DNA of 64,000 bases from Mayamaea pseudoterrestris (lineage: Eukaryota > Bacillariophyta > Bacillariophyceae > Sellaphorales > Sellaphoraceae), in the NCBI GenBank assembly GCA_027923505.1, contig BROI01000011.1, positions 124,001 to 188,000 on the forward strand, in the 5' to 3' direction. This document shows positions 2,901 to 62,366 of the stretch, in pieces. The translations under genes were made by a program, and so were the position numbers. The notes beneath the pieces are model-generated. The model did no database searches. It was not told the DNA's origin and worked only from the letters and a program-made list of their open reading frames with translations. The first letter of the stretch is position 1, and each line of letters opens with the position of its first letter.

Positions 2901-4451
2901 CTAATTACCAACCATCTCTGCCTGTGATTTGCAATGCGTTGCGCAAGAGCAGAGCAGTGCAGAATGGCAAGATACCACAATGTCGTTCAAGCGTCCAATG
3001 GATCTCAAGGCACACACTTCGTCTGGGAAAGTTCCATAAAAGTCGGTATCATAAATCATCAATTGCTCCAGCTCCGTTAATTTACCCATCTCGGTTGGAA
3101 TTGGACCTGCCAATCGAGTCTGCTGCAAGTGCAGCGTCCGTAAGTTTGTCAGACTTCCAATTTCGCTCGGTAGCGATCCTCCCAACTGATGATTTGTATT
3201 AAAATAGAGATGCTCAAGATGCTTTAAACCTGCAAGCTCCGTCGGAATCGAACCAGTGAGATTGGCATTGTTAAATATGAGCTGCGTAACCTGTTGATGA
3301 TCGTTACAGTGCACCCGACTCCAAGACTTGCAAATACCGGATACACCGTCAACCAAGTCCCAGTCGGCGAAGCCCAAATGGTGCCGGACCAGATACATGG
3401 CATAGCCAACACCAAACATTGAATCCCACGTTGGACAATCTGTCGACGCCACTTCAAGTTCGTCCTGCGATAAAAGCCAGTCAATCGCCTTGTACTCGGG
3501 CGAGTGGTGGTCGCTCATGTTGGCGGTTTTCAAACGCCCCTACAGCAAGCCATGAATACACCCAAATCACACCAGAATGATGCCAACATCATTATTCAGG
3601 CTGCGCAACAAGATGGCATGCTTGGCTGGGATCTCAGTAGACTGCAATGTGATTGGTGACAACTTGTCACCAGTCTCAGCCTGCAGATGCCTTGACATTC
3701 AAACGCCCCTACAGCAAGCCATGTATACACCCAAATCACACCAGAATGATGCCAACATCATTATTCAGGCTGCTCAACAAGATGGTATACTTGGATGGTG
3801 TCTCAGTAGACTGCAATGTGATTGGTGACAACTTGTCACCAGTCTCAGCCCCCAGATGCAGCTCCGAGCACACTTGATGAAGTAAGAGAATCGGTCCACC
3901 TGCGAATCGGATGGGCCGAGCATAAACTCATTCCACGCTTCATACACCATGACGGCTGCGCCAAGTACCAGCAACAGTAAACCAAGTTGTCGCGAATATT
4001 TTGCTGCAAATGAGCGAACCTTCTGCGCCGGCCCTTCGTCCTCAACGTCCATTGGCTGCATTGGATGAAACGGCACATTTCCATGGGTTCCTGCTCTCGT
4101 CGAGCGACGAAACGGGCGATGGGGGTATTCGTCACTCATGGGCGCATAGAATTCTTGTCGGACGCGGGAAAGAATTTCATCGCTGAGCTCACCTGCACTG
4201 TTTGTCAACGGGTCGTCCTGCCTTTCAATCAATGGCGCGATTGCATCGATAGCACCCTGCGATTCTGTATCTGCAAACTGAGAATTGGAGCTCATGGTTC
4301 GATAGAGCAATTCGCGATAAAGCTGCCTCAATAATCCTTGCTGCGACGGCGAAAGGCGAGGGTTTCGAATGATACGGGTGCGCTGGAAACGTTGGTTGGC
4401 ACGTTCCAGCAAAGCTTCGAGAAGCGGATCTTCCAATGGATCTTGGCTCAT
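2901..4451 (-). CDS. Membrane-anchored leucine-rich-repeat protein, two exons; intron made of satellite DNA
   Basis: Proposed join: exon 1 4451-3840 (204 codons), exon 2 3539-2901 (212 codons plus stop), total 416 residues. Exon 1 encodes a charged cytoplasmic-type region and a transmembrane helix at about residues 156-173. Exon 2 encodes SPEYKAIDWLLSQD, a segment commonly found before the repeats in diatom LRR proteins, a Cys-containing cap, and about four plant-type LRRs (x-L-x-x-N-x-L-x-G-x-I-P) at about 288-383. Splicing at GTGACAAG (donor, 3839) and TTGCTGTAG (acceptor, 3540) gives a phase-0, 300-nt intron and keeps the frame. The intron and the codons immediately beside it (about 22 nt of exon 1 and 11 nt of exon 2) match the 169-bp satellite unit. 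If unspliced, the reading frame ends shortly after the donor. The splice model is inferred; the two coding parts are clear. Ligand unknown. Confidence 0.75.
3529..3862 (-). repeat. 1.9 copies of the 169-bp satellite unit inside the LRR gene
   Basis: Read on the minus strand this stretch is nearly identical to units of the large array at 15.6-31.6 kb, including both small inverted repeats GGTGACAAGTTGTCACC and AATGATGTTGGCATCATT. It spans the whole LRR intron and overlaps both exon edges. The exon-1 edge matches an array variant that carries the extra trinucleotide before CATCTGC (seen near 17185, 19047 and 26498). These are the only copies seen in the window outside the array and its inverted edge. 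Confidence 0.93.
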
Positions 4452-15180: not shown

Positions 15181-15553
15181 TTATTCGCTTAACGACCCTC
15201 GCAATCGATCTTGTTTGGAAATTACTGCATCATCTACATCAGGATCCATGTCTGTCAAGTTCTCAAAGTCCAAGTATTCGTAATGCTGGAGTGGGTGCGA
15301 CTCGTCAAAGCCATTCTGAACGTGCTTGACGCGATTCTGAACCCATGCCAGTTCCTTTTGCAGTATGATCTCGTCCGTCAAGTGAGCCGTTGTTGAATAA
15401 CATTCCAGTATCATCATTACAATCAATATTCTTGTTATTTTTACCGTTGTCATTGTTTGCAACTAGACTAATGTGATTATGAAGCAAGAGTTCGATCTGG
15501 CTCTCCGTTTCAGCAAGATCTTCTTCCGCGCGCGTGAATGTAGCTTTTCAGTC
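15181..15553 (-). pseudogene. Possible remnant of a gene abutting the left edge of the array
   Basis: Two overlapping minus-strand frames look partly coding. The upstream one (about 15553-15305) reads EEDLAETESQIELLLHNH, the downstream one (15462-15181) reads LTDEIILQKELAWVQNRV and continues with acidic, helix-forming residues to a stop. They are in different frames and there is no convincing intron between them, so I read this as a possible broken gene with one frame change, whose 5' part is missing where the satellite begins. A real short gene of 93 residues starting at 15462, with a weak hydrophobic N-terminus, is the alternative. No family is recognised. Confidence 0.3.
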
Positions 15554-15730
15554 GCGCTTGCCCGCAATCACAAGATCGCCAGGGATCATCTACTGCGGGC
15601 TGAGACTGGGGATAAGGTCTCATTGCAGTCAACTGAGACCAGCCAGGCATACCATCTTGTAGCACAGCTTAAAGTAATGATGTTGGCACCATTCTGTTGT
15701 AATTTGGGTGTATCCATGACTTCTAAAGAA

Positions 15731-18700
15731 AAGCATACCATCTTATTACGCAGCCTCAACAATGATGTTGGCATCATTCTGGTGTGATTTGGGTGTACAC
15801 ATGGCTTGCTGTATGGGCGTTTGAATGTCATGGCATCTGCGGGCTGAGACTGGTGACAAGTTGTCACCAATCACATTGCAGTCTTCTAAGACCCCAGCCA
15901 AGCATACCATCTTATTGCGCAGCCTGAATAATGATGTTGGCATCATTCTGGTGTGATTTGGGTGTACACATCACATGCTGTAGGGGCGTTTGAATGTCAA
16001 GGCATCTGCGGGCTGAGACTGGTGACAAGTTGTCACCAATATGATTGCAGTCTTCTGAGACACCATCCAAGCATACCAGCTTGTAGAGCAGCCTGAATAA
16101 TGATGTTGGCATCATTTTGGTGTGATTTGGGTGTATGCATGGCATGCTGTAGGGGCGTTTGAATATTAAGGCATCTGCGGGCTGAGACTGGTGACAAGTT
16201 GTCACCAATATCATTGCAGTCTACTGAGATCCCAGCCAAGCATACCATCTTGTAGCGCAGCCTGAATAATGATGTTGGCATCATTCTGGTGTGATTTGGG
16301 TGTATACATGGCTTGCTGTAGGGGCGTTTGAATGTCAAGGCATCTGCAGGCTCAGACTGGTGACAAGTTGTCACCAATATGATTGCAGTCTACTGAGACC
16401 CCAGCCAAGCATACCATCTTGTAGCGCAGCCTGAATAATGATGTTGGCATCATTCTGGTGTGATTTGGGTGTGCACATGGCTTGCTGTAGGGGCGTTTGA
16501 ATGTCATGGCATCTGCGGGCTGAGACTGGTGACAAGTTGTCACCAATCACATTGCAGTCTACTGAGACACCATCCTAGCATACCAGATTGTAGCGCAGCC
16601 TGAATAATGATGTTGGTATCATTCTGGTGTATTTGGGTGTATGCATGGCTTGCTGTAGGGGCGTTTGAATGTCAAGGCATCTGCAGGCTGAGACTGGTGA
16701 CAAGTTGTCACCAATCACATTGCAGTCTACTGAGACACCATCCAAGCATACCAGCTTGTAGCGCAGCCTGAATAATGATGTTGGCATCATTCTGGTGTGA
16801 TTTGGGTGTATACATGGCTTGCTGTAGGGGCGTTTGAATGTCAAGGCATCTGCAGGCTTAGACTGGCGACAAGTTGTCACCAATATGATTGCAGTCTTCT
16901 GAGACCCCAACCAAGCATACCATCTTATTGCGCAGCCTGAATAACGATGTTGGCATCATTCTGGTGTGATTTGGGTGAACACATGGCTTGCTGTAGGGGC
17001 GTTTGAATGTCATGGCATCTGCGGGCTGAGACTGGTGTCAAGTTGTCACCAATATGATTGCAGTCTACTGAGACACCATCCAAGCATACCAGCTTGTAGC
17101 GCAGCCTGAATAATGATGTTGGCAGCATTCTGGTGTGATTTGGGTGTATACATGGCTTGCTGTAGGGGCGTTTGAATGTCAAGGCTGCATCTGCAGGCTC
17201 AGACTGGTGTCAAGATGTCATTAATATGATTGCAGTCTTCTGAGACCCCAGCCAAGCATACCATCTTGTAGCGCAGCCTGAATAATGATGTTGGCATCAT
17301 TCTGGTGTGATTTGGGTGTATACATGGCTTGCTGTAGGGGCGTTTGAATGTCATGGCATCTGCGGGCTGAGACTGGTGACAAGTTGTCACCAATCACATT
17401 GCAGTCTTCTGAGACCCCAGCCAAGCATACCATCTTATTGCGCAGCCTGAATAATGATGTTGGCATCATTCTGGTGTGATTTGGGTGTACACATGGCTTG
17501 CTGTAGGGGCGTTTGAATGTCAAGGCATCTGCGGGCTGAGACTGGTGACAAGTTGTCACCAATCACATTGCAGTCTACTGAGACACCATCCAAGCATACC
17601 AGCTTGTAGAGCAGCCTGAATAATGATGTTGGCATCATTCTGGTGTGATTTGGGTGTATACATGGCTTGCTGTAGGGGCGTTTGAATGTCAAGGCATCTG
17701 CGGGCTGAGACTGGTGACAAGTTGTCACCAATCACATTGCAGTCTACTGAGACCCCAGCCAAGCATACCATCTTGTAGCGCAGCCTGAATAATGATGTTG
17801 GCATCATTCTGGTGTGATTTGGGTGTATGCATGGCTTGCTGTAGGGGCGTTTGAATGTCAAGGCATCTGCGGGCTGAGACTGGTGACAAGTTGTCACCAA
17901 TCACATTGCAGTCTACTGAGACACCATCCAAGCATACCAGCTTGTAGCGCAGCCTGAATAATGATGTTGGCATCATTCTGGTGTGATTTGGGTGTATACA
18001 TGGCTTGCTGTAGGGGCGTTTGAATGTCAAGGCATCTGCAGGCTGAGACTGGTGACAAGTTGTCACCAATCACATTGCAGTCTACTGAGACACCATCCAA
18101 GCATACCAGCTTGTAGCGCAGCCTGAATAATGATGTTGGCATCATTCTGGTGTGATTTGGGTGTATACATGGCTTGCTGTAGGGGCGTTTGAATGTCAAG
18201 GCATCTGCAGGCTGAGACTGGTGACAAGTTGTCACCAATATCATTGCAGTCTTCTGAGACCCCAGCCAAGCATACCATCTTGTAGCGCAGCCTGAATAAT
18301 GATGTTGGCATCATTCTGGTGTGATTTGGGTGTACACATGGCTTGCTGTAGGGGCGTTTGAATGTCATGGCATCTGCAGGCTGAGACTGGTGACAAGTTG
18401 TCACCAATCACATTGCAGTCTACTGAGACACCAGCCAAGCATACCAGCTTGTAGCGCAGCCTGAATAATGATGTTGGCATCATTCTGGTGTGATTTGGGT
18501 GTATACATGGCTTGCTGTAGGGGCGTTTGAATGTCAAGGCATCTGCGGGCTGAGACTGGTGACAAGTTGTCACCAATCACATTGCAGTCTACTGAGACAC
18601 CATCCAAGCATACCAGCTTGTAGCGCAGCCTGAATAATGATGTTGGCATCATTCTGGTGTGATTTGGGTGTATACATGGCTTGCTGTAGGGGCGTTTGAA

Positions 18701-20978
18701 TGTCAAGGCATCTGCGGGCTGAGACTGGTGACAAGTTGTCACCAATATCATTGCAGTCTTCTGAGACCCCAGCCAAGCATACCAGCTTGTAGAGCAGCCT
18801 GAATAATGATGTTGGCATCATTCTGGTGTGATTTGGGTGTATACATGGCTTGCTGTAGGGGCGTTTGAATGTCAAGGCATCTGCGGGCTGAGACTGGTGA
18901 CAAGTTGTCACCAATATCATTGCAGTCTTCTGAGACACCAGCCAACCATACCAGCTTGTAGCGCAGCCTGAATAATGATGTTGGCATCATTCTGGTGTGA
19001 TTTGGGTGTATACATGGCTTGCTGTAGGGGCGTTTGAATGTCAAGGCTGCATCTGCAGGCTGAGACTGGTGTCAAGTTGTCACCAATATGATTGCAGTCT
19101 TCTGAGACCCCAGCCAAGCATACCATCTTGTTGCGCAGCCTGAATAATGATGTTGGCATCATTCTGGTGTGATTTGGGTGTATACATGGCTTGCTGTAGG
19201 GGCGTTTGAATGTCAAGGCATCTGCGGGCTGAGACTGGTGACAAGTTGTCACCAATATGATTGCAGTCTTCTGAGACCCCAGCCAAGCATACCATCTTGT
19301 TGCGCAGCCTGAATAATGATGTTGGCATCATTCTGGTGTGATTTGGGTGTATACATGGCTTGCTGTAGGGGCGTTTGAATGTCATGGCATCTGCGGGCTG
19401 AGACTGGTGACAAGTTGTCACCAATATCATTGCAGTCTTCTGAGACACCATCCAAGCATACCATCTTGTTGCGCAGCCTGAATAATGATGTTGGCATCAT
19501 TCTGGTGTGATTTGGGTGTATACATGGCTTGCTGTAGGGGCGTTTGAATGTCAAGGCATCTGCGGGCTGAGACTGGTGACAAGTTGTCACCAATAATATT
19601 GCAGTCTTCTGAGACCCCGCCCAAGCATACCATCTTGTAGAGCAGCCTGAATAATGATGTTGGCATCATTCTGGTGTGATTTGGGTGTATACATGGCTTG
19701 CTGTAGGGGCGTTTGAATGTCAAGGCATCTGCGGGCTGAGACTGGTGACAAGTTGTCACCAATATCATTGCAGTCTACTGAGACCCCAGCCAAGCATACC
19801 AGCTTGTAGCGCAGCCTGAATAATGATGTTGGCATCATTCTGGTGTGATTTGGGTGTATACATGGCTTGCTGTAGGGGCGTTTGAATGTCAAGGCATCTG
19901 CGGGCTGAGACTGGTGACAAGTTGTCACCAATATCATTGCAGTCTACTGAGACACACCCTAGCCATGCATACCAGCTTGTAGCGCAGCCTGAATAATGAT
20001 GTTGGCATCATTCTGGTGTGATTTGGGTGTATACATGGCTTGCTGTAGGGGCGTTTGAATGTCAAGGCATCTGCAGGCTGAGACTGGTGACAAGTTGTCA
20101 CCAATATCATTGCAGTCTACTGAGACACCATCCAAGCATACCAGCTTGTAGCGCAGCCTGAATAATGATGTTGGCATCATTCTGGTGTGATTTGGGTGTA
20201 TACATGGCTTGCTGTAGGGGCGTTTGAATGTCAAGGCATCTGCGGGCTGAGACTGGTGACAAGTTGTCACCAATATGATTGCAGTCTTCTGAGACCCCAG
20301 CCAAGCATACCAGCTTGTAGCGCAGCCTGAATAATGATGTTGGCATCATTCTGGTGTGATTTGGGTGTATACATGGCTTGCTGTAGGGGCGTTTGAATGT
20401 CAAGGCATCTGCGGGCTGAGACTGGTGACAAGTTGTCACCAATATCATTGCAGTCTTCTGAGACCCCAGCCAAGCATACCAGCTTGTAGCGCAGCCTGAA
20501 TAATGATGTTGGCATCATTCTGGTGTGATTTGGGTGTATACATGGCTTGCTGTAGGGGCGTTTGAATGTCAAGGCATCTGCAGGCTGAGACTGGTGACAA
20601 GTTGTCACCAATATCATTGCAGTCTACTGAGACACCATCCAAGCATACCATCTTGTAGCGCAGCCTGAATAATGATGTTGGCATCATTCTGGTGTGATTT
20701 GGGTGTATACATGGCTTGCTGTAGGGGCGTTTGAATGTCAACGCATCTGCAGGCTGAGACTGGTGACAAGTTGTCACCAATATCATTGCAGTCTTCTGAG
20801 ACCCCAGCCAAGCATACCATCTTGTAGCGCAGCCTGAATAATGATGTTGGCATCATTCTGGTGTGATTTGGGTGTATACATGGCTTGCTGTAGGGGCGTT
20901 TGAATGTCAAGGCATCTGCGGGCTGAGACTGGTGACAAGTTGTCACCAATATCATGGCAGTCTACTCAGACCCCAGCC
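15731..20978. repeat. Segmental duplication within array 1, copy A (5,248 bp)
   Basis: Bases 15731-20955 appear identical to 20979-26203 at a constant offset of 5,248 bp; every translated frame compared, and rare variants such as the CATCACATGC unit and the CACACCCTAGCCATGC unit, recur at exactly this offset. 5,248 is 31 units plus 9 bp. The match breaks near 20956/26204. Confidence 0.9.
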
Positions 20979-23900
20979 AAGCATACCATCTTATTACGCA
21001 GCCTCAACAATGATGTTGGCATCATTCTGGTGTGATTTGGGTGTACACATGGCTTGCTGTATGGGCGTTTGAATGTCATGGCATCTGCGGGCTGAGACTG
21101 GTGACAAGTTGTCACCAATCACATTGCAGTCTTCTAAGACCCCAGCCAAGCATACCATCTTATTGCGCAGCCTGAATAATGATGTTGGCATCATTCTGGT
21201 GTGATTTGGGTGTACACATCACATGCTGTAGGGGCGTTTGAATGTCAAGGCATCTGCGGGCTGAGACTGGTGACAAGTTGTCACCAATATGATTGCAGTC
21301 TTCTGAGACACCATCCAAGCATACCAGCTTGTAGAGCAGCCTGAATAATGATGTTGGCATCATTTTGGTGTGATTTGGGTGTATGCATGGCATGCTGTAG
21401 GGGCGTTTGAATATTAAGGCATCTGCGGGCTGAGACTGGTGACAAGTTGTCACCAATATCATTGCAGTCTACTGAGATCCCAGCCAAGCATACCATCTTG
21501 TAGCGCAGCCTGAATAATGATGTTGGCATCATTCTGGTGTGATTTGGGTGTATACATGGCTTGCTGTAGGGGCGTTTGAATGTCAAGGCATCTGCAGGCT
21601 CAGACTGGTGACAAGTTGTCACCAATATGATTGCAGTCTACTGAGACCCCAGCCAAGCATACCATCTTGTAGCGCAGCCTGAATAATGATGTTGGCATCA
21701 TTCTGGTGTGATTTGGGTGTGCACATGGCTTGCTGTAGGGGCGTTTGAATGTCATGGCATCTGCGGGCTGAGACTGGTGACAAGTTGTCACCAATCACAT
21801 TGCAGTCTACTGAGACACCATCCTAGCATACCAGATTGTAGCGCAGCCTGAATAATGATGTTGGTATCATTCTGGTGTATTTGGGTGTATGCATGGCTTG
21901 CTGTAGGGGCGTTTGAATGTCAAGGCATCTGCAGGCTGAGACTGGTGACAAGTTGTCACCAATCACATTGCAGTCTACTGAGACACCATCCAAGCATACC
22001 AGCTTGTAGCGCAGCCTGAATAATGATGTTGGCATCATTCTGGTGTGATTTGGGTGTATACATGGCTTGCTGTAGGGGCGTTTGAATGTCAAGGCATCTG
22101 CAGGCTTAGACTGGCGACAAGTTGTCACCAATATGATTGCAGTCTTCTGAGACCCCAACCAAGCATACCATCTTATTGCGCAGCCTGAATAACGATGTTG
22201 GCATCATTCTGGTGTGATTTGGGTGAACACATGGCTTGCTGTAGGGGCGTTTGAATGTCATGGCATCTGCGGGCTGAGACTGGTGTCAAGTTGTCACCAA
22301 TATGATTGCAGTCTACTGAGACACCATCCAAGCATACCAGCTTGTAGCGCAGCCTGAATAATGATGTTGGCAGCATTCTGGTGTGATTTGGGTGTATACA
22401 TGGCTTGCTGTAGGGGCGTTTGAATGTCAAGGCTGCATCTGCAGGCTCAGACTGGTGTCAAGATGTCATTAATATGATTGCAGTCTTCTGAGACCCCAGC
22501 CAAGCATACCATCTTGTAGCGCAGCCTGAATAATGATGTTGGCATCATTCTGGTGTGATTTGGGTGTATACATGGCTTGCTGTAGGGGCGTTTGAATGTC
22601 ATGGCATCTGCGGGCTGAGACTGGTGACAAGTTGTCACCAATCACATTGCAGTCTTCTGAGACCCCAGCCAAGCATACCATCTTATTGCGCAGCCTGAAT
22701 AATGATGTTGGCATCATTCTGGTGTGATTTGGGTGTACACATGGCTTGCTGTAGGGGCGTTTGAATGTCAAGGCATCTGCGGGCTGAGACTGGTGACAAG
22801 TTGTCACCAATCACATTGCAGTCTACTGAGACACCATCCAAGCATACCAGCTTGTAGAGCAGCCTGAATAATGATGTTGGCATCATTCTGGTGTGATTTG
22901 GGTGTATACATGGCTTGCTGTAGGGGCGTTTGAATGTCAAGGCATCTGCGGGCTGAGACTGGTGACAAGTTGTCACCAATCACATTGCAGTCTACTGAGA
23001 CCCCAGCCAAGCATACCATCTTGTAGCGCAGCCTGAATAATGATGTTGGCATCATTCTGGTGTGATTTGGGTGTATGCATGGCTTGCTGTAGGGGCGTTT
23101 GAATGTCAAGGCATCTGCGGGCTGAGACTGGTGACAAGTTGTCACCAATCACATTGCAGTCTACTGAGACACCATCCAAGCATACCAGCTTGTAGCGCAG
23201 CCTGAATAATGATGTTGGCATCATTCTGGTGTGATTTGGGTGTATACATGGCTTGCTGTAGGGGCGTTTGAATGTCAAGGCATCTGCAGGCTGAGACTGG
23301 TGACAAGTTGTCACCAATCACATTGCAGTCTACTGAGACACCATCCAAGCATACCAGCTTGTAGCGCAGCCTGAATAATGATGTTGGCATCATTCTGGTG
23401 TGATTTGGGTGTATACATGGCTTGCTGTAGGGGCGTTTGAATGTCAAGGCATCTGCAGGCTGAGACTGGTGACAAGTTGTCACCAATATCATTGCAGTCT
23501 TCTGAGACCCCAGCCAAGCATACCATCTTGTAGCGCAGCCTGAATAATGATGTTGGCATCATTCTGGTGTGATTTGGGTGTACACATGGCTTGCTGTAGG
23601 GGCGTTTGAATGTCATGGCATCTGCAGGCTGAGACTGGTGACAAGTTGTCACCAATCACATTGCAGTCTACTGAGACACCAGCCAAGCATACCAGCTTGT
23701 AGCGCAGCCTGAATAATGATGTTGGCATCATTCTGGTGTGATTTGGGTGTATACATGGCTTGCTGTAGGGGCGTTTGAATGTCAAGGCATCTGCGGGCTG
23801 AGACTGGTGACAAGTTGTCACCAATCACATTGCAGTCTACTGAGACACCATCCAAGCATACCAGCTTGTAGCGCAGCCTGAATAATGATGTTGGCATCAT

Positions 23901-26203
23901 TCTGGTGTGATTTGGGTGTATACATGGCTTGCTGTAGGGGCGTTTGAATGTCAAGGCATCTGCGGGCTGAGACTGGTGACAAGTTGTCACCAATATCATT
24001 GCAGTCTTCTGAGACCCCAGCCAAGCATACCAGCTTGTAGAGCAGCCTGAATAATGATGTTGGCATCATTCTGGTGTGATTTGGGTGTATACATGGCTTG
24101 CTGTAGGGGCGTTTGAATGTCAAGGCATCTGCGGGCTGAGACTGGTGACAAGTTGTCACCAATATCATTGCAGTCTTCTGAGACACCAGCCAACCATACC
24201 AGCTTGTAGCGCAGCCTGAATAATGATGTTGGCATCATTCTGGTGTGATTTGGGTGTATACATGGCTTGCTGTAGGGGCGTTTGAATGTCAAGGCTGCAT
24301 CTGCAGGCTGAGACTGGTGTCAAGTTGTCACCAATATGATTGCAGTCTTCTGAGACCCCAGCCAAGCATACCATCTTGTTGCGCAGCCTGAATAATGATG
24401 TTGGCATCATTCTGGTGTGATTTGGGTGTATACATGGCTTGCTGTAGGGGCGTTTGAATGTCAAGGCATCTGCGGGCTGAGACTGGTGACAAGTTGTCAC
24501 CAATATGATTGCAGTCTTCTGAGACCCCAGCCAAGCATACCATCTTGTTGCGCAGCCTGAATAATGATGTTGGCATCATTCTGGTGTGATTTGGGTGTAT
24601 ACATGGCTTGCTGTAGGGGCGTTTGAATGTCATGGCATCTGCGGGCTGAGACTGGTGACAAGTTGTCACCAATATCATTGCAGTCTTCTGAGACACCATC
24701 CAAGCATACCATCTTGTTGCGCAGCCTGAATAATGATGTTGGCATCATTCTGGTGTGATTTGGGTGTATACATGGCTTGCTGTAGGGGCGTTTGAATGTC
24801 AAGGCATCTGCGGGCTGAGACTGGTGACAAGTTGTCACCAATAATATTGCAGTCTTCTGAGACCCCGCCCAAGCATACCATCTTGTAGAGCAGCCTGAAT
24901 AATGATGTTGGCATCATTCTGGTGTGATTTGGGTGTATACATGGCTTGCTGTAGGGGCGTTTGAATGTCAAGGCATCTGCGGGCTGAGACTGGTGACAAG
25001 TTGTCACCAATATCATTGCAGTCTACTGAGACCCCAGCCAAGCATACCAGCTTGTAGCGCAGCCTGAATAATGATGTTGGCATCATTCTGGTGTGATTTG
25101 GGTGTATACATGGCTTGCTGTAGGGGCGTTTGAATGTCAAGGCATCTGCGGGCTGAGACTGGTGACAAGTTGTCACCAATATCATTGCAGTCTACTGAGA
25201 CACACCCTAGCCATGCATACCAGCTTGTAGCGCAGCCTGAATAATGATGTTGGCATCATTCTGGTGTGATTTGGGTGTATACATGGCTTGCTGTAGGGGC
25301 GTTTGAATGTCAAGGCATCTGCAGGCTGAGACTGGTGACAAGTTGTCACCAATATCATTGCAGTCTACTGAGACACCATCCAAGCATACCAGCTTGTAGC
25401 GCAGCCTGAATAATGATGTTGGCATCATTCTGGTGTGATTTGGGTGTATACATGGCTTGCTGTAGGGGCGTTTGAATGTCAAGGCATCTGCGGGCTGAGA
25501 CTGGTGACAAGTTGTCACCAATATGATTGCAGTCTTCTGAGACCCCAGCCAAGCATACCAGCTTGTAGCGCAGCCTGAATAATGATGTTGGCATCATTCT
25601 GGTGTGATTTGGGTGTATACATGGCTTGCTGTAGGGGCGTTTGAATGTCAAGGCATCTGCGGGCTGAGACTGGTGACAAGTTGTCACCAATATCATTGCA
25701 GTCTTCTGAGACCCCAGCCAAGCATACCAGCTTGTAGCGCAGCCTGAATAATGATGTTGGCATCATTCTGGTGTGATTTGGGTGTATACATGGCTTGCTG
25801 TAGGGGCGTTTGAATGTCAAGGCATCTGCAGGCTGAGACTGGTGACAAGTTGTCACCAATATCATTGCAGTCTACTGAGACACCATCCAAGCATACCATC
25901 TTGTAGCGCAGCCTGAATAATGATGTTGGCATCATTCTGGTGTGATTTGGGTGTATACATGGCTTGCTGTAGGGGCGTTTGAATGTCAACGCATCTGCAG
26001 GCTGAGACTGGTGACAAGTTGTCACCAATATCATTGCAGTCTTCTGAGACCCCAGCCAAGCATACCATCTTGTAGCGCAGCCTGAATAATGATGTTGGCA
26101 TCATTCTGGTGTGATTTGGGTGTATACATGGCTTGCTGTAGGGGCGTTTGAATGTCAAGGCATCTGCGGGCTGAGACTGGTGACAAGTTGTCACCAATAT
26201 CAT
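20979..26203. repeat. Segmental duplication within array 1, copy B
   Basis: Direct-orientation partner of 15731-20955. It begins with the same diverged, edge-like unit (CTTATTACGCAGCCTCAACA) that marks the left edge of the array, so an edge unit now lies in the array interior. It follows copy A after a 23-bp stretch that differs from both partners. Confidence 0.9.
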
Positions 26204-29200
26204 TGCAGTCTTCTGAGACCCCAGCCAAGCATACCATCTTGTTGCGCAGCCTGAATAATGATGTTGGCATCATTCTGGTGTGATTTGGGTGTATACATGG
26301 CTTGCTGTAGGGGCGTTTGAATGTCAAGGCATCTGCGGGCTGAGACTGGTGACAAGTTGTCACCAATATCATTGCAGTCTTCTGAGACACCATCCAAGCA
26401 TACCATCTTGTTGCGCAGCCTGAATAATGATGTTGGCATCATTCTGGTGTGATTTGGGTGTATACATGGCTTGCTGTAGGGGCGTTTGAATGTCAAGGCT
26501 GCATCTGCAGGCTGAGACTGGTGTCAAGTTGTCACCAATATCATTGCAGTCTTCTGAGACACCCGCCAAGCATACCAGCTTGTAGAGAAGCCTAAATAAT
26601 GATGTTGGCATCATTCTGGTGTGATTTGGGTGTATACATGGCTTGCTGTAGGGGCGTTTGAATGTCAAGGCATCTGCGGGCTGAGACTGGTGACAAGTTG
26701 TCACCAATATCATTGCAGTCTACTGAGACACCATCCAAGCATACCATTTGTAGAGCAGCCTGAATAATGATGTTGGCATCATTCTGGTGTGATTTGGGTG
26801 TATACATGGCTTGCTGTAGGGGCGTTTGAATGTCAAGGCATCTGCGGGCTGAGACTGGTGACAAGTTGTCACCAATATGATTGCAGTCTACTGAGACACC
26901 ATCCAAGCATACCATCTTGTAGCGCAGCCTGAATAATGATGTTGGCATCATTCTGGTGTGATTTGGGTGTATACATGGCTTGCTGTAGGGGCGTTTGAAT
27001 GTCAAGGCATCTGCGGGCTGAGACTGGTGACAAGTTGTCACCAATATCATTGCAGTCTTCTGAGACACCATCCAAGCATACCATCTTGTAGCGCAGCCTG
27101 AATAATGATGTTGGCATCATTCTGGTGTGATTTGGGTGTATACATGGCTTGCTGTAGGGGCGTTTGAATGTCAAGGCATCTGCGGGCTGAGACTGGTGAC
27201 AAGTTGTCACCAATATGATTGCAGTCTACTGAGACCCCAGCCAAGCATACCATCTTGTAGCGCAGCCTGAATAATGATGTTGGCATCATTCTGGTGTGAT
27301 TTGGGTGTATACATGGCTTGCTGTAGGGGCGTTTGAATGTCAAGGCATCTGCGGGCTGAGACTGGTGACAAGTTGTCACCAATATCATTGCAGTCTTCTG
27401 AGACCCCAGCCAAGCATACCATCTTGTTGCGCAGCCTGAATAATGATGTTGGCATCATTCTGGTGTGATTTGGGTGTATACATGGCTTGCTGTAGGGGCG
27501 TTTGAATGTCAAGGCATCTGCGGGCTGAGACTGGTGACAAGTTGTCACCAATATGATTGCAGTCTACTGAGACACCATCCAAGCATACCAGCTTGTAGAG
27601 CAGCCTGAATAATGATGTTGGCATCATTCTGGTGTGATTTGGGTGTATACATGGCTTGCTGTAGGGGCGTTTGAATGTCAAGGCATCTGCAGGCTGAGAC
27701 TGGTGACAAGTTGTCACCAATATCATTGCAGTCTTCTGAGACCCCAGCCAAGCATACCATCTTGTAGCGCAGCCTGAATAATGATGTTGGCATCATTCTG
27801 GTGTGATTTGGGTGTATACATGGCTTGCTGTAGGGGCGTTTGAATGTCAAGGCATCTGCGGGCTGAGACTGGTGACAAGTTGTCACCAATATCATTGCAG
27901 TCTTCTGAGACCCCAGCCAAGCATACCATCTTGTAGCGCAGCCTGAATAATGATGTTGGCATCATTCTGGTGTGATTTGGGTGTATACATGGCTTGCTGT
28001 AGGGGCGTTTGAATGTCAAGGCATCTGCGGGCTGAGACTGGTGACAAGTTGTCACCAATATCATTGCAGTCTTCTGAGACACCATCCAAGCATACCAGCT
28101 TGTAGCGCAGCCTGAATAATGATGTTGGCATCATTCTGGTGTGATTTGGGTGTATACATGGCTTGCTGTAGGGGCGTTTGAATGTCAAGGCATCTGCGGG
28201 CTGAGACTGGTGACAAGTTGTCACCAATATCATTGCAGTCTTCTGAGACCCCAGCCAAGCATACCAGCTTGTAGCGCAGCCTGAATAATGATGTTGGCAT
28301 CATTCTGGTGTGATTTGGGTGTATACATGGCTTGCTGTAGGGGCGTTTGAATGTCAAGGCATCTGCGGGCTGAGACTGGTGACAAGTTGTCACCAATATG
28401 ATTGCAGTCTACTGAGACACCATCCAAGCATACCAGCTTGTAGCGCAGCCTGAATAATGATGTTGGCATCATTCTGGTGTGATTTGGGTGTATACATGGC
28501 TTGCTGTAGGGGCGTTTGAATGTCAAGGCATCTGCGGGCTGAGACTGGTGACAAGTTGTCACCAATATCATTGCAGTCTACTGAGACACCATCCAAGCAT
28601 ACCATCTTGTAGCGCAGCCTGAATAATGATGTTGGCATCATTCTGGTGTGATTTGGGTGTATACATGGCTTGCTGTAGGGGCGTTTGAATGTCAAGGCAT
28701 CTGCGGGCTGAGACTGGTGACAAGTTGTCACCAATATCATTGCCGTCTTCTAAGACACCAGCCAAGCATTCCAGCTTGTAGAGCAGCCTGAATAATGATG
28801 TTGGCATCATTCTGGTGTGATTTGGGTGTATGCATGGCTTGCTGTAGGGCGTTTGAATGTCAAGGCATCTGCAGGCTGAGACTGGTGACAAGTTGTCACC
28901 AATATCGATGTCTGCGCAGCCTGAATAATGATGTTGGCATCATTCTGGTGTGATTTGGGTGTATACATGGCTTGCTGTAGGGGCATTTGAATGTCAAGGC
29001 ACCTGCAAGCTGAGACTGGTGACAAGTTGTCACCAATATCATTGCAGTCTTCTGAGACACCAGCCAAGCATACCAGCTTGTAGAGCAGCCTCAAGAATGA
29101 TGTTGGCATCATTCTGGTGTGATTTGGTTGTATTCATGGCTTGCTGTAGGGGCGTTTCAATGTCAAGGCATCTGCAGGCTGAGACTGGTGACAAGTTGTC

Positions 29201-31612
29201 ACCAATATCATTGCAGTCTGCTGAGACACCATCCAATCATACCAGCTTGTAGAGCAGCCTGAATAATGATGTTGGCATCATTCTGGTGTGATTTGGGTGT
29301 ATACATGGCTTGCTGTAGGGGCGTTTGAATGTCAAGGCATCTGCGGGCTGAGACTGGTGACAAGTTGTCACCAATATCATTGCAGTCTTCTGAGACCATA
29401 GCCTAGCATACCAGCTTGTTGCTTAGCCACAATAATGATTTTGGCATCATTCTGGTGTGACTTGGGTGTATACATGGCTTGCTGTAGGGGCATTTGAATG
29501 TCAAGGCATCTGCGGGCTGAGACTGGTGACAAGTTGTCACCAATCACATTGCAGTCAACTGACACACTATCCAAGCATACCAGCTTGTAGAGCAGCCTGA
29601 TTAATGATGTTGGCATCATTTTGGTGTGATTTGGGTGTATAAATGGCTTGCTGTAGGGGCGTTTGAATGTAAAGGCATCTGCAGGCTGAGACTGGTGACA
29701 AGTTGTCACCAATATCATTGCAGTCTTCTGAGACCTTGGCCAAGCATACCATCTTGTTGCGCAGCCTGAATGATGATGTTGGCATCATTCTGGTGTGATT
29801 TGGGTGTATACATGGCTTGCTGTAGGGGCGTTTGAATGTCAAGGCATCTGCGGGCTGAGACTGGTGACAAGTTGTCACCAATCACATTGCAGTCTACTGA
29901 GACACCATCCAAGCATACCAGCTTGTAGAGCAGCCTGAATAATGATGTTGGCATCATACTGGTGTGATTTGGGTGTATACATGGCTTGCTGTAGGGGCAT
30001 TTGAAAGTCAAGGCATCTGCGGGCTGAGACTGGTGACAAGTTGTCACCAATATCATTGCAGTCTTTTGAGACACCCACCAAGCATACCAGCTTGTAGTGC
30101 AGCCTGAATAATGATGTTGGCATCATTCTGGTGTGATTTGGGTGTATACATGGCTTGCTGTAGGGGCGTTTGAATGTCAAGGCATCTGCGGGCTGAGACT
30201 GGTGACAAGTTGTCACCAATATCATTGCAGTCTTCTGAGACCCCGGCCAAGCATACCATCTTGTTGCGCAGCCTGAATAATGATGTTGGCATCATTCTGG
30301 TGTGATTTGGGTGTATACATGGCTTGCTGTAGGGGCGTTTGAATGTCAAGGCATCTGCGGGCTGAGACTGGTGACAAGTTGTCACCAATATCATTGCAGT
30401 CTTCTGAAACACCCACCAATCATAACAGCTTGTAGCGCAGCCTGAATAATGATGTTGGCATCATTCTGGTGTGATTTGGGTGTATACATGGCTTGCTGTA
30501 GGGGCATTTGAATGTCAAGGCATCTGCGGGCTGAGACTGGTGACAAGTTGTCACCAATATCATTGCAGTCTTCTGAGACACCTGCCAAGCATACCAGCTT
30601 GTAGATCAGCCTGAATAATGATGTTGGCATCATTCTGGTGTGATTTGGGTGTATACATGACTTGCTGTAGGGGTGTTGGAATGTCAAGGCATCTGCGGGC
30701 TGAGACTGGTGACAAGTTGTCACCAATATCATTGCAGTCTTCTGAGACCCCGGCCAAGCATACCATCTTGTTGCGCTGCCTGAATAATGATGTTGGCATC
30801 ATTCTGGTGTGATTTGGGTGTATACATGGCTTGCTATAGGGGCGTTTGAATGTCAAGGCATCTGCGGGCTGAGACTGGTGACAAGTTGTCACCAATCACA
30901 TTGCAGTCTACTGAGACACCAGCCAAGCATACCAGCTTGTTGCTTAGCCTCAATAATGATTTTGGCATCATTCTGGTGTGATTTGGGTGTATACATGGCT
31001 TGCTGTAGGGGCATTTGAATGTCAAGGGATCTGTGGGTTGAGACTGGTGACAAGTTGTCACCAATAACATTGCAGTCTACTGAGACACCAGCCAAGTATA
31101 CTATCTTGTTGCGCAGCCTCAATAATGATGTTGGGACCATTCTGGTGTGATTTGGGTGTATACATGGCTTGCTGTAAGTGCGTTTGAATGTTTGCCAAGG
31201 CATTTGCAGGCTGAGACTGGTGACAAGTTGTCACCAATATCATTGCAGTATTCTGAGACACCAGCCAAGCACACCATCTTCTTGCGCAGCCTCAAGAATG
31301 ATGTTGGCATCATTCTGGTGTGATTTGGGTGTATACGTGGCTTGCTGTAGGGGTGTTTGAATGTCAAGGCATCTGCGGGCTGAGACTGGTGACAAGTTGT
31401 CACCAATCACATTGCAGTCTTCTGAGACACCAGTCAAGCATACCATCTTGTAGAGTAGCCTCAATAATGATGTTGGCATCATTCTGGTGTGATTTGGGTG
31501 TATAAATGGCTTGCTGTAGGGGCGTTTAAATGTCAAGGCATCTGCGGGCTGAGACTGGTGACAAGTTGTCACCAGTCACATTAGCCACTGAGACACCAGT
31601 AAAAAATTCATT

Positions 31613-31702
31613 TCTTAAGCCATGTATATACCCAAGGGACACAAGAATGGTGCCAACATGGTATGCCTATACCCAGATGGTGTCTCGTTAGACTATCCTA
31701 CC
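31613..31702. repeat. Degenerate satellite unit in inverted orientation at the right edge of array 1
   Basis: The bases from AAGCCATGTATATACCC through GATGGTGTCTCGTTAGACT match the reverse complement of the array unit (the orientation seen on the plus strand in the LRR intron), with mismatches and a deletion of about 25 bp. The direct array ends just before it. Confidence 0.75.
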
Positions 31703-37100: not shown

Positions 37101-40100
37101 TGGCAAGCTCAAGTTTTGGGAAAGCTGAGGGAGTAGATGGGCCAAATAGAACAACAGCGCAGTCTATGAATCCAAACCAATCAAACTATGGCTCTGATTG
37201 TCATTTCAGCCAGTGCCACCATTCAACAAGGTATACGTGAGCTACTATGACACATTCAATGTCAGACAACTCATGTGTTCCTGGCAAAACAGGAGTAGAT
37301 ACGCTGTATTTTGTGCAACTGTATGTCACACAGCAGCAGCGGCAGCACCCGCAAAACTTTGGCCATCCCCATCATGTGAAGCATTCCCACCTTTCAAAAA
37401 GCTTTTGGTAAGGTCAATCAACCTCTACAACCTTGGCGGTCATGCAAATCCTTCAAGATTTGGGAGTAGACATGCTTGCTTCCACATAGCTAAGTATCCC
37501 ATACGTCACCACACTACACCACCAGGTCTGCTAGGCATCCCCATCAAATATAATCATTGCCACCATGGGCCAAACTATTGATGAGACCAACAAAACCAAA
37601 CAAACCTGGCAAGCTCAAGTTTTGGGAAAGCTGTGGGAGTAATTGGGCCAAATAGACCAACAGCGCAGTCTATGAATCCAAACCAATCAAAGTATGTATC
37701 TTTTTGTTATTTTTGCCAATGCCACCTTTCAAAAAGGTATACCTGAGGTACTATGACACATTCAATGTTGGACAACTCATGTGTTCCTGGCAAAACAGGA
37801 GTAGATACGCTGTATTTTGTGCGACTGTATGTCACGCAGCAGCAATCGCAGCAGCAATGGCAGCACCCGCAAACTTTGGCCATCCCCATCATGTGAAGCA
37901 TTCACACCTTTCAAAAAGCTTTTGGTATGGTCAATCCACCTCTACAACCTTGGCGGTCATGCAAATCCTTCAAGTTTTGGGAGTAGACATGCGAGCTTCC
38001 ACATAGCTAAGCATCCCATACGTCGCCACACCACACCACACCACCAGCTCCGCTGGGCATCCCCATCAATTACCAACATTGCCACATTGGGCCAAACTAT
38101 CAATGAGGCCTACAAAACCAAACAAACCTGGCAAGCTCAAGTTTTGGGAAAGCTGTGGGAGTAGATGGGCCAAATAGAACAACAGCGCAGTCTATGAATC
38201 CAAACCAATCAAACTATGGCTCTGATTGTCATTTTAGCCAATGCCACCTTTCAACAAGGTATACGTGAGCTACTTTGACACATTCAATGTTGGACAACTC
38301 ATGTGTTCCTGGCAAAACAGGAGTAGATACGCTGTATTCCATGTGACTGTATGTCACACAGCAGCAGCGGCAGCATCCACAGAACTTTGGCCATCCCCAT
38401 CATGTGAAGCATTCCCACCTTTCAAAAAGCTTTTGGTAAGGTCAATCAACCTCTACAACCTTGGCGGTCATGCAAATCCTTCAAGTTTTGGGGTTAGACA
38501 TGCAAGCTTCCACATAGCTAAGTATCCCGTACATTGCCACACCACACCTTGCCACCAGGTCCGTTGGGCATCCCCATCAATCACCAACATAGCAACCATG
38601 GGCCAAACTATCAATGAGGCCTACAAAACCAAACAAACCTGGCAAGCTCAAGTTTTGGGAAAGCTGTGGGAGTAGATGGGCCAAATAGAACAACAGCGCA
38701 GTCTATGAATCCAAACCAAACAAACTATGGCTCTGATTGTCATTTCAGCCAGTGCCACCATTCAACAAGGTATACGTGAGCTACTATGACACATTCAATG
38801 TCAGACAACTCATGTGTTCCTGGCAAAACAGGAGTAGATACGCTGTATTTTGTGCAACTGTATGTCACACAGCAGCAGCAACAGCATCCACAAAACTTTG
38901 GCCATCCCCATCATGTGAAGCATTCCCACCTTTCAAAAAGCTTTTGCTATGGTCAATCAATTTCTACAACCTTGGCGGTCATGCAAATCCTTCAAGTTTT
39001 GGGAGTAGACATGCTAGCTTCCACATAGCTAAGTATCCCATACGTCGCCACACCACACCACACCACCAGGTCCGCTGGGCATCTCCATCAATTACCAACA
39101 TAGCCACCATGGGCCAAACTATCAATGAGACCAACAAAACCAAACAAACCTGGCAAGCTTAAGTTTTGGGAAAGCTGTGGGAGTAGATGGGCCAAATAGA
39201 CCAACAGCGCAGTCTATGAATCCAAACCAATCAAAGTATGTATCTTTTTGTTATTTTTGCCAATGCCACCTTTCAAAAAGGTATACCTGAGGTACTGTGA
39301 CACATTCAATGTTGGACAACTCATGTGTTCCTGGCAAAACAGGAGTAGATACGCTGTATTCCATGTGACTGTATGTCATACAGCAGCAAAGGCAGCACCC
39401 GCAAAACTTTGGCCATCCCCATCATGTGAAGCATTCCCACCTTTCAAAAAGCTTTTGCTATGGTCAATCCACCTCTACAAACTTGGTGGTCATGCAAATC
39501 CTTCAAGTTTTGGGAGTAGACGTGCTAGCTTCCACATAGCTAAGTATCCCATACGTCGCCACACCACACCACACCACCAGGGCCGCTGGGCATCCCCATC
39601 CATTACCAACATTGCCACCATGGGCCAAACTATCAATGAGACCAACAAAACCAAACAAACCTGGCAAGCTTAAGTTTTGGGAAAGCCGTGGGAGTAGATG
39701 GGCCAAATAGAACAACAGCGCAGTCTATGAATCCAAACCAATCAAAGTATGTATCTTTTTGTTATTTTTGCCAATGCCACCTTTCAACAAAGTATACCTG
39801 AGGTACTGTGACACATTCAATGTTGGACAACTTATGTGTTCCTGGCAAAACAGGAGTAGATACGCTGTATTCCATGTGACTGTATGTCATACAGCAGCAG
39901 CAACAGCACCCACAAAACTTTGGCCATCCCCATCATGTGAAGCATTCCCACCTTTCAAAAAGCTTTTGCTATGGTCAATCCACCTCTACAACCTTGGCGG
40001 TCATGCAAATCCTTCAAGTCTTGGGGTTAGACATGCTAGCTTCCATATAGCTAAGTATCCCATAAGTCGCCACACCACACCTTGCTACCAGGTCTGCTGG

Positions 40101-43100
40101 GCATCCCCATCCATTACCAACATTGCCACCATGGGCCAAACTATCAATGAGGCCTACAAAACCAAACAAACCTGGCAAGCTTAAGTTTTGGGAAAGCCGT
40201 GGGAGTAGATGGGCCAAATAGACCAACAGCGCAGTCTATGAATCCAAACCAATCAAAGTATGTATCTTTTTGTTATTTTTGCCAATGCCACCTTTTAACA
40301 AAGTATACCTGAGGTACTGTGACACATTCAATGTTGGACAACTTATGTGTTCCTGGCAAACCAGGAGTAGATACGCTGTATTCCATGTGACTGTATGTCA
40401 TACAGCAGCAGCAACAGCACCCACAAAACTTTGGCCATCCCCATCATGTGAAGCATTCCCACCTTTCAAAAAGCTTTTGCTATGGTCAATCCACCTCTAC
40501 AACCTTGGCGGTCATGCAAATCCTTCAAGTTTTGGGGTTAGACATGCTAGCTTCCACATAGCTAAGTATCCCATACGTCGCCACACCACACCACACCACC
40601 AGGGCCGCTGGGCATCCCCATCCATTACCAACATTGCCACCATGGGCCAAACTATCAATGAAGCCTACAAAACCAAACAAACCTGGCAAGCATAAGTTTT
40701 GGGAAAGCCGTGGGAGTAGATGGGCCAAATAGAACAACAGCGCAGTCTATGAATTTAAACCAATCAAAGTATGTATCTTTTTGTTATTTTTGCCAATGCC
40801 ACCTTTTAACAAGGTATACCTGAGGTACTGTGACACATTCAATGTTCGACAACTCATGTGTTCCTGGCAAAACAGGAGTAGATACGCTGTATTCCATGTG
40901 ACTATGTGTCACGCAGCAGCAGCGGCAGCACCCGCAAAACTTTGGCCATCCCCATGATGTGAAGCATTCCCACCTTTCAAAAAGCTTTTGGTATGGTCGA
41001 TCAACCTCTACAACCTTGGCAGTCATGCAAATCCTTTAAGTTTTGTGAGTAGACATGCTAGCTTCCACATAGCTAAGCATCCCATACGTCGCCACACCAC
41101 ACCACACCACCAGCTCCGCTGGGCATCCCCATCAATTACCAACATTGCCACATTGGGCCAAACTATCAATGAGGCCTACAAAACCAAACAAACCTGGCAA
41201 GCTCAAGTTTTGGGAAAGCTGTGGGAGTAGATGGGCCAAATAGAACAACAGCACAGTCTGTGAATCCAAACCAATCAAACTTTCGCTCTGATTGTCATTT
41301 TAGCCAATGCCACCTTTCAACAAGGTATACGTGAGCTACTATGACACTTTCAATGTTGGACAACACATGTGTTCCTGGCAAAACAGGAGTAGATACGCTG
41401 TATTTTGTGCGACTGTATGTCACGCAGCAGCAGCAGCACCCGCAAAACGTTGGCCATCCCCATCATGTGAAGCATTTTCACCTTTCAATAAGCTTTTGGT
41501 ATGGTCCATCACCCTCTACATCCTTGGTGGGCATGCAAATCCTTCAAGTTTTGGGAGTAGACATGCTAGCTTCCACATAACTAAGTATCCCATACGTCGC
41601 CACACCACACCTCGCCACCAGGTCTGCTGGGCATCCCCATCAATTACCAACATAGCCACCATGGGCCAAACTATCAATGAGGCCTACAAAAACAAACAAA
41701 CCTGGCAAACTCAAGTTTTGGGAAAGCTGTGGGAGTAGATGGGCCAAATAGACCAACAGCGCAGTCTATGAATCCAAACTAAACAAACTATGGCTTTGAT
41801 TGTCATTTTAGCCAATGCCACCTTTTGACAAGATATACGTGAAGTACTATGATACATTCAATGTCGGACAACTCATGTGTTCCTGGCAAAACAGGAGTAG
41901 ATACGCTGTATTCCATGTGACTGTATGTCACGCAGCAGCAGCAGCAACAGCATCCACAGAACTTTGGCCATCCCCATCATGTGAAGCATTCCCACCTTTC
42001 AAAAAGCTTTTGGTATGGTCAATCAACCTCTACAACCTTGGTGGTCGTGCAAATCCTTCAAGTTTTGGGAGTAGACATGCTAGCTTCCACATAGCTAAGT
42101 ATCCCGTACATTGCCACACCACACCACCAGGTCCGCGGGGCATCCCCATCAAATAAAAACAATGCCACCATGGGCCAAACTATCAATGAGACCAACAAAA
42201 CCAAACAAACCTGGCAAGCTCAAGTTTTAGGAAAGCCGTGGGAGTAGATGGGCCAAATAGAACAACAGCGAAGTATATAAATCCAAACCAATCAAACTAT
42301 GGCTCTGATTGTCATTATAGCCGTTGCCACCTTTTGACAAGATATACGTAAAGTACTATGACACATTCAATGTTGGACAACTCATGTGTTCCTGGCAAAA
42401 CAGGAGTAGATACGCTGTATTCCATGTGACTGTATGTCATACAGCAGCAGCAACAGCAGCCACAAAACTTTGGCCATCCCCATCATGTGAAGCGTTCCCA
42501 CCTTTCAAAAAGCTTTTGCTATGGTCAATCAACCTCTACAACCTTGGCGGTCATGCAAATCCTTCAAGTTTTGGGAGTAGACATGCTAGCTTCCACATAG
42601 CTAAGTATCCCGTACGTCGCCACACCACACCTCGCCACCAGGTCTGCTGGGCATCCCCATCAATTACCAACATAGCCACCATGGGCCAAACTATCAATGA
42701 GGCCTACAAAAACAAACAAACCTGGCAAACTCAAGTTTTGGGAAAGCTGTGGGATGGGAGTAGATGGGCCAAATAGAACAACAGCGCAGTCTATGAATCC
42801 AAACCAAACAAACTATGGCTCTGATTGTCATTTTAGCCTATGCAACCTTTCAACAAGGTAAGCGTGAGCTACCATGACACATACAATGTTGGACAACTCA
42901 TGTGTTCCTGGCAAAACAGGAGTAGATACTCTGTATTCCATACAACTGCATCTGTATGTCACGCAGCAGCAGCGGCAGCACCTGCAGAACTTAGGCCCTC
43001 CCCATCATGTGAAGCATTCCCACCTTTCAAAAAGCTTTTGGTACGGTCAATCAACCTCTACAACCTTGGTGGTCATGCAAATCCTTCAAGTTTTGGGAGT

Positions 43101-61572: not shown

Positions 61573-62366
61573 GCTAAAGAGCATGCATGGGATTCTTGCT
61601 GAAGCAGGCAAGTTGTACAAAGTCATTTCCTTGTTGCTAAATACTCATAAACTTATTCCCAGAAAAAGTAGCCTTGAGGCCTGTCAAACAACAGCTCTGA
61701 GCTTGACTATGGGAAATTTTTGTGGAGAGCATGAACATCTTGCACGAGAACCATGATAGAGCAGCTATGTCTTGCAAGATCACTTCCTTGTTGCATGAGA
61801 CTGGCTCTTTGATTCCCGGAATGAGTGTCTGTAGCCTTGGAGCCAACAACCCACTGCTCGGAGCTTGACCATATTTCAACTTTGTGGAGCACATTAAGAG
61901 CATGCTTGAGATCCTTGTTGGAGCAGCAAAGTTTTTGCAAGGTCACTTTCATGTTGCATGAGACTGATTTTTTGACTCCCGGAATGAGTGTCTGTGGCCT
62001 TGGAGCCTGCCAGACCACTGCGCTGAGCTTGATCATAGATCAACTTTGTGGAGCACATTACATCATGCATGAGAACCATGATAAAGCAGCTATATCTTGC
62101 AAGGACACTTCCTTGTTGCATGAGACTGACTTGTTGATTCCTGGAATGAGTGTCTGTAGCCTTGGAACCTGCCAGACCACTGTGCTGAGCTTGATCATGG
62201 ATTAACATTGTGGAGCGCATTTACCGCATGCGTGTGATTCTTGTTACAGCAGCCAAGTCTTGTAAGGTCACATTCATGTTGCATGAGACAGATCTTTTCA
62301 TTCCCAGAATTGTTGTCTGTAGCCTTGGAGCCAGCCATGCCATGGCGCTGAGCTTTATCATAACTC
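61573..62366. repeat. Tandem repeat family 4: about five units of ~163 bp
   Basis: The junction phrase TTTGTGGAG recurs at about 61721, 61883, 62047 and, as CATTGTGGAG, at 62208 (periods 162-164). Units share TTGCATGAGACTG, ATTCCCGGAATGAGTGTCTG and TAGCCTTGGAGCC. Units are diverged, with the leftmost weakest. It abuts the AspH-like gene's upstream region and the ~343-bp family to its right. Confidence 0.88.

Follow-up and report, generated by a model that had tools for sequence, protein, structure and literature searches.

Can a fragment of satellite DNA, once lodged in a coding exon, act as a spliceosomal intron? The question is raised by an LRR receptor-like gene of Mayamaea pseudoterrestris, located in a 64-kb stretch of the genome (C11:124001-188000, here called the window; the genome comprises 30.6 Mb in 41 contigs). 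As the first-pass annotation had claimed, the two coding parts of this gene are separated by sequence of a 169-bp satellite (Table 1). The ORF prediction covering the second coding part, P0074, carries precomputed assignments to LRR Pfam families. A first protein query with the gene gave no matches, and a second, shorter one gave 17, consisting of P0074 itself, P0075 and more distant LRR proteins; P0075, the closest homolog, aligns to 53% of the query at 65% identity, and the insert site lies outside its coverage. An eIF2D protein encoded elsewhere in the window has 84% identity to a Mayamaea pseudoterrestris protein across 74% of the query, and its remaining organism-labelled matches are likewise from diatoms. 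Scans of the 64-kb window for Rfam families (gathering cut-off) and for tRNAs were both empty. Probably, the locus records a recent repair-type capture of satellite DNA, which would have disrupted the gene or, in the most favourable case, left a protointron that is spliced poorly.

The presence of a satellite piece within the LRR coding region is confirmed. Tandem Repeats Finder reports 2.0 copies of the unit at 3529-3859, and the match is far above chance, with an E value of 9.1e-152 for the best array on another contig among the 36 of 828 candidates that were scored. The insert opens with GCATCTG (unit position 151), closes with TTTGAA (position 143) and lacks TGTCAAG, 7 bp that two full units would contain. 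The last 20 nt of coding part 1 (3859-3840) and the first 11 nt of coding part 2 (3539-3529) are also satellite, so that the earlier estimate was exact for exon 2 and slightly too long for exon 1, where about 22 nt had been proposed. By eye, neither a target-site duplication nor terminal inverted repeats were seen: the flanks, ...GGAGCT and AACCGCC..., have nothing duplicated in common, and the two insert ends are not inverted repeats of each other. If the transcript is read unspliced, a stop is reached at 3776, within the first satellite copy.

Table 1. The LRR receptor-like gene, its satellite insert and the neighbouring array, in window coordinates
Feature	Position	Strand	Basis
LRR receptor-like gene	ATG at 4451 to stop at 2901	-	open reading frame, two coding parts
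Coding part 1: N-terminal region and transmembrane-like stretch (by eye)	3840..4451	-	open frame
Coding part 2: LRR domain and stop	2901..3539	-	open frame; ORF prediction P0074
Satellite insert, 331 bp (two 169-bp units minus 7 bp)	3529..3859	-	Tandem Repeats Finder, unit alignment
Insert layout: unit positions 151-169, one full unit, positions 1-143 (numbering from GGTGACAAG)	3529..3859	-	
Putative 300-nt intron GTGACAAG...TGCTGTAG	3540..3839	-	single in-frame GT-AG pair inside insert
Inner cassette of 38 nt, flanked by the inner acceptor (3716-3709) and the inner donor (3670-3663)	3671..3708	-	sequence
Palindrome GGTGACAAGTTGTCACC, which holds the putative 5′ site and is more conserved than any other part of the unit	3824..3840	-	unit alignments
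Array of the 169-bp satellite, 16 kb, 14 kb from the insert and in opposite orientation to it	15593..31599	+	Tandem Repeats Finder, alignments

The unit forms high-copy tandem arrays with 169-bp spacing and is thus a satellite. The exact 17-mer GGTGACAAGTTGTCACC occurs 7671 times (3747 + 3924) in the 30.6-Mb genome and its reversed control not at all; at 169 bp for each occurrence, the satellite is estimated to total about 1.3 Mb. This palindrome is found in both copies of the insert, and the putative 5′ splice site does lie inside it (3840-3824), as was noted before. Over 346-362 array units, its conservation is 99.1-99.5% against a unit mean of 93.5-93.6% with four anchors; picking units by the palindrome might inflate the value, and the three other anchors still give 99.4-99.5%. 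The splice dinucleotides are retained in 353 (GT) and 346 (AG) of 359 array units, which places them only at ranks 36 and 79 of 168 dinucleotides. The conservation peak spans the whole palindrome, not the splice dinucleotides as such, and therefore points to a constraint at the DNA level, e.g., a protein-binding site, rather than to splicing. The 17-bp box occupies unit positions 1-17 throughout (e.g., 3840-3824 and 15852 onwards) and is a putative protein-binding element.

The first alternative is a genuine new spliceosomal intron, spliced efficiently at GTGACAAG and TGCTGTAG in a gene that works with 11 extra residues. The frame agrees with such an intron. Its bounds, GTGACAAG at 3839-3832 and TGCTGTAG at 3547-3540, enclose exactly 300 nt, and the frame is continuously open once 3840 is joined to 3539; in both respects the first-pass annotation was correct. 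The pair 3839/3540 is the only frame-restoring GT-AG pair wholly within the insert, and it costs no exon codon: after the predicted splicing, 20 + 11 nt of satellite would remain and, with a single odd base on either side, make up 33 nt encoding 11 added residues (CIWGLRLGRLK), with every flanking codon kept. When loss of flanking exon is allowed, 94 GT/GC-AG pairs in the range tested keep an open frame. The inner acceptor/38-nt/donor cassette that had been predicted is present at 3708-3671; its inclusion would shift the frame because 38 is not a multiple of 3. With the outer donor and the outer acceptor in use, the exonised length should be independent of copy number.

Splice signals are less favourable. 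For comparison, eight introns were inferred in this genome, with the donors GTAAGT (three), GTGAGT, GTAGGT, GTATGT, GTACGT and GTAACT. These introns are 70-117 nt long, and their acceptors end in CAG or TAG after 6-10 pyrimidines in the preceding 12 bases; one of the eight, in an M1 peptidase gene, is further supported by domain continuity. They came from two rankings. One applied a GTRAGT preference, and a further candidate from it, 50 nt long with GTACGT in L073, was excluded. The other used coding score alone and gave 44 candidates, mostly not introns (+5G in 32%), from which the choice was made by hand; for two of the eight, L076 (minus) and L071, it preferred different donors. The donor of the insert, GTGACA, lacks both the +5G found in seven of the eight and the +6T found in all eight, although GTAACT is likewise without +5G. 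Among the 2372 plus-strand GTs outside the array its score falls at the 62nd percentile, about that of an average GT, whereas all eight inferred donors score at 0.981 or above on the same scale. By this model, which is built from eight introns only and is partly circular, GTGACA does not resemble the GTAAGT-like consensus of the genome. The best-scoring GTs of the insert are located past its first stop or within its second copy. At 300 nt, the putative intron is longer than every inferred one. The acceptor, a TAG with 7 pyrimidines in 12, falls inside the range of inferred acceptors and appears acceptable; together with the fully open state of both coding parts, it is also the counterpoint to gene disruption. 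The insertion is so recent, however, that open frames would be expected even without selection.

How easily such a pair arises by chance was estimated from 331-bp fragments of the window array, taken at random orientation and phase in 3000 trials. An in-frame GT-AG was available in 1355 of them (45%), comprising 495/1487 in array orientation and 860/1513 in the reversed one, and in 982 (33%) an in-frame pair also had a pyrimidine at -3 and a donor no worse than that of the insert. Because nearly half of the random fragments can rescue the frame, rescue alone is weak evidence for an intron. Of the earlier proposal that the satellite brings its own splice sites, the sole in-frame GT-AG pair stands, while the atypical donor and the rate of chance rescue leave the rest of the reading weak. 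The insert is thus a possible but weakly supported intron, and if it is spliced at all, these signals suggest inefficient splicing. An efficiently spliced new intron seems rather unlikely on this balance, and it is slightly more doubtful still that two satellite units made a working spliceosomal intron in one step, with the donor within the conserved palindrome.

Alternatively, a pre-existing intron of the gene could have received the satellite and had its own sequence replaced. The predicted protein P0075 starts downstream of the site, which may reflect an upstream intron in that species or just how the start codon was chosen. On the other hand, the paralogs L017 and L029 have open frames of 413 and 1605 aa through the corresponding region with no intron, and the environmental homolog P0082 is open there as well; all three are distant and similarity is low just upstream of the site, which makes the exact ancestral length uncertain. 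Moreover, both coding parts begin or end in satellite, and nothing is left of an intron with other sequence. Replacement of an older intron is accordingly quite improbable.

The nearest dimer to the insert among the loci compared lies in the window array at 17525-17855 and differs at 9 of 331 bases without gaps; the second nearest, on contig C1, has 14 differences in the same ungapped comparison. Arrays on other contigs ranked first as sources in a search that scored 36 of 828 candidates; a direct comparison favours the window array. Only five bases of the insert have a frequency below 5% in the 359 array units, and one of the five does not occur in these units at all. Since the distant paralogs are intronless at this place and the nearest copy found belongs to a long array, the satellite most likely entered the gene rather than the reverse. 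Judged by the nearest dimer found, the insertion is recent, with at most about 2.7% divergence.

Several other repeats occur in the window. The array itself contains a tandem duplication (15852-26348, offset 5248), in which 15852-20851, at the least, recurs unchanged 5248 bp further on; this is either a very recent event or an assembly effect. A degenerate inverted satellite remnant immediately follows the array end at 31617-31659. A second satellite, with units of 163/325 and 344 bp, occupies 61719-64000, and by eye a portion of it looks like the sequence flanking one end of a 169-bp array in L083. At 39200-40695, three near-identical open frames of 157 aa are repeated at 511-bp spacing, a three-copy, possibly coding tandem repeat whose neighbours are 95 and 97% identical in DNA.

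A further possibility is that the satellite unit is a mobile element of the introner kind, which repeatedly enters genes and is removed by splicing. The very high copy number of 7671 exact 17-mers would suit it, and known introners may carry both splice sites and add codons, as with some in Aureococcus that add 12 bp (PMC9860276). The ends of the insert are also relevant, as both fall within a recurrent edge stretch of the arrays, unit positions 140-157. Array edges were taken as the ends of BLAST matches, and one edge beside masked bases was excluded. With the band set after the first edges had been inspected, 12 of 42 edges lie in it including the gene insert (p 0.0011), 10/40 without it (p 0.0079), and 8/38 (p 0.044) after two of three microsatellite-linked array starts are dropped. 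Six later edges, the sole partly independent batch, gave 3/6 (p 0.019); for all edges without the gene insert, the totals, counted by hand, are 13/46 (p 0.0008), or 11/44 (p 0.005) minus the two linked edges. An element with defined ends was considered and rejected, as most array edges fall outside 140-157, and the stretch is read as a preferred break region, not as fixed ends. In L002, L040 (C1:2718755-2719682) and L058 (C3 near 465979), the arrays adjoin one shared GAATGCGT-type microsatellite and share, exactly or nearly, the unit position of their start; two of them are inverted around the microsatellite.

Searches for siblings speak against this. A set of 38 loci (143,885 bases, partly overlapping), drawn from LRR paralogs and from ten fixed-position stretches, contained no further short gene-embedded copy and only one array edge, and the gene insert is the sole satellite copy in the window outside 15501-31700. 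Rare variants of the insert occur at 5 + 30 places, the gene insert being one of each, which leaves 33 others; ten stretches covering 13 of these gave no sibling insertion, as every stretch holds an array of about 1 kb or more, and four more, on C26, fall by coordinates in the array-holding stretches L051 and L059. Arrays serving as giant introns were also considered and rejected: edges in L048, L049 and L052 have long frames on the satellite strand, and by eye no exon is joined at the acceptor, the L048 frame having its own ATG downstream of the array edge. The threshold for an introner family is at least four similar introns in a genome (PMC9860276), against one gene-embedded copy found in the roughly 1% of the genome examined, a sample that a small family could escape. 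Target-site duplications or terminal inverted repeats, frequent but not universal in introners (PMC9860276), were not seen by eye at the insert. The introner-like interpretation offered earlier is therefore not upheld, given a donor unlike those of the inferred introns, chance rescue, dinucleotides without special conservation and no second copy in this sample, and it must be considered very improbable. That, in reverse, an ordinary intron of the LRR gene seeded the satellite, as was also suggested, is hardly credible: exon-side bases do occur in satellite units, but all 31 are standard satellite with no paralog counterpart visible, where similarity just upstream is low, 7 bp present in array units are missing from the insert, the units are diverse and number thousands whereas the gene copy is close to one array subtype, and, as shown above, the distant paralogs are open here and the nearest copy found is in a long array.

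Recent repair-type capture could have proceeded as follows. A fragment of about two units, likely derived from the window array at 14 kb distance or from one nearly identical to it, would have been captured into a coding exon of the LRR receptor-like gene when a break was repaired or when excised satellite DNA reintegrated. Broken or excised satellite may tend to have the ends seen here on account of the preferred break region, and these would have been joined at a break in the gene. Most transcripts would then keep the insert, and translation would end at 3776, leaving the gene damaged or its membrane protein truncated. Splicing at GTGACAAG/TGCTGTAG may occur in a small share of transcripts, which would yield the full protein with 11 additional residues, i.e., a protointron state.

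Parallels can be found in several known systems. As introners are described in PMC9860276, the insert resembles them in being repeat DNA in an exon with potential splice sites; unlike them, it is represented by one gene copy found, has a weak donor and only putative splicing, shows no duplication or inverted repeats, and belongs to a satellite whose copies are mostly in long tandem arrays. In Saccharomyces, PMC6726248 describes protointrons as non-conserved, with weaker 5′ sites, a poorer G5 and low splicing, and includes repeat-borne cases such as introns in Y′ repeats, with splicing observed by RNA-seq. The weak 5′ site and the intron-like sequence carried by a repeat are shared; in contrast to those RNA-seq-supported cases, the sequence here is a satellite insert in a coding exon with putative splicing. 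If some splicing occurs, the insert would most resemble a yeast protointron.

Ds and dSpm insertions in coding exons of maize are partly removed by cryptic splicing, with residues added or lost. Insertion within a coding exon, partial splicing and gain or loss of residues would be common to both cases, whereas a DNA transposon with a target-site duplication is involved in maize and a satellite here. With ordinary satellite DNA, the sequence shares the 169-bp unit, thousands of copies, long arrays and a recent within-array duplication; it departs from it as a two-copy fragment in a coding exon, the sole such case in the sampled DNA. Among the titles and abstract openings covered by a literature search, no report of recent intron birth from satellite DNA was met.

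If the insert is unspliced, the locus documents the movement of satellite DNA into a gene, and the ease with which a frame-restoring GT-AG arises by chance calls for caution in claims of intron gain made from sequence only. Should RNA reveal splicing, the locus would instead capture, at sequence resolution, how satellite DNA recently gave rise to an intron. And if an intron did arise in one step, use of the outermost donor and acceptor would keep the frame unaffected when the array expands later, and satellites with GT and AG so arranged could grow inside genes.
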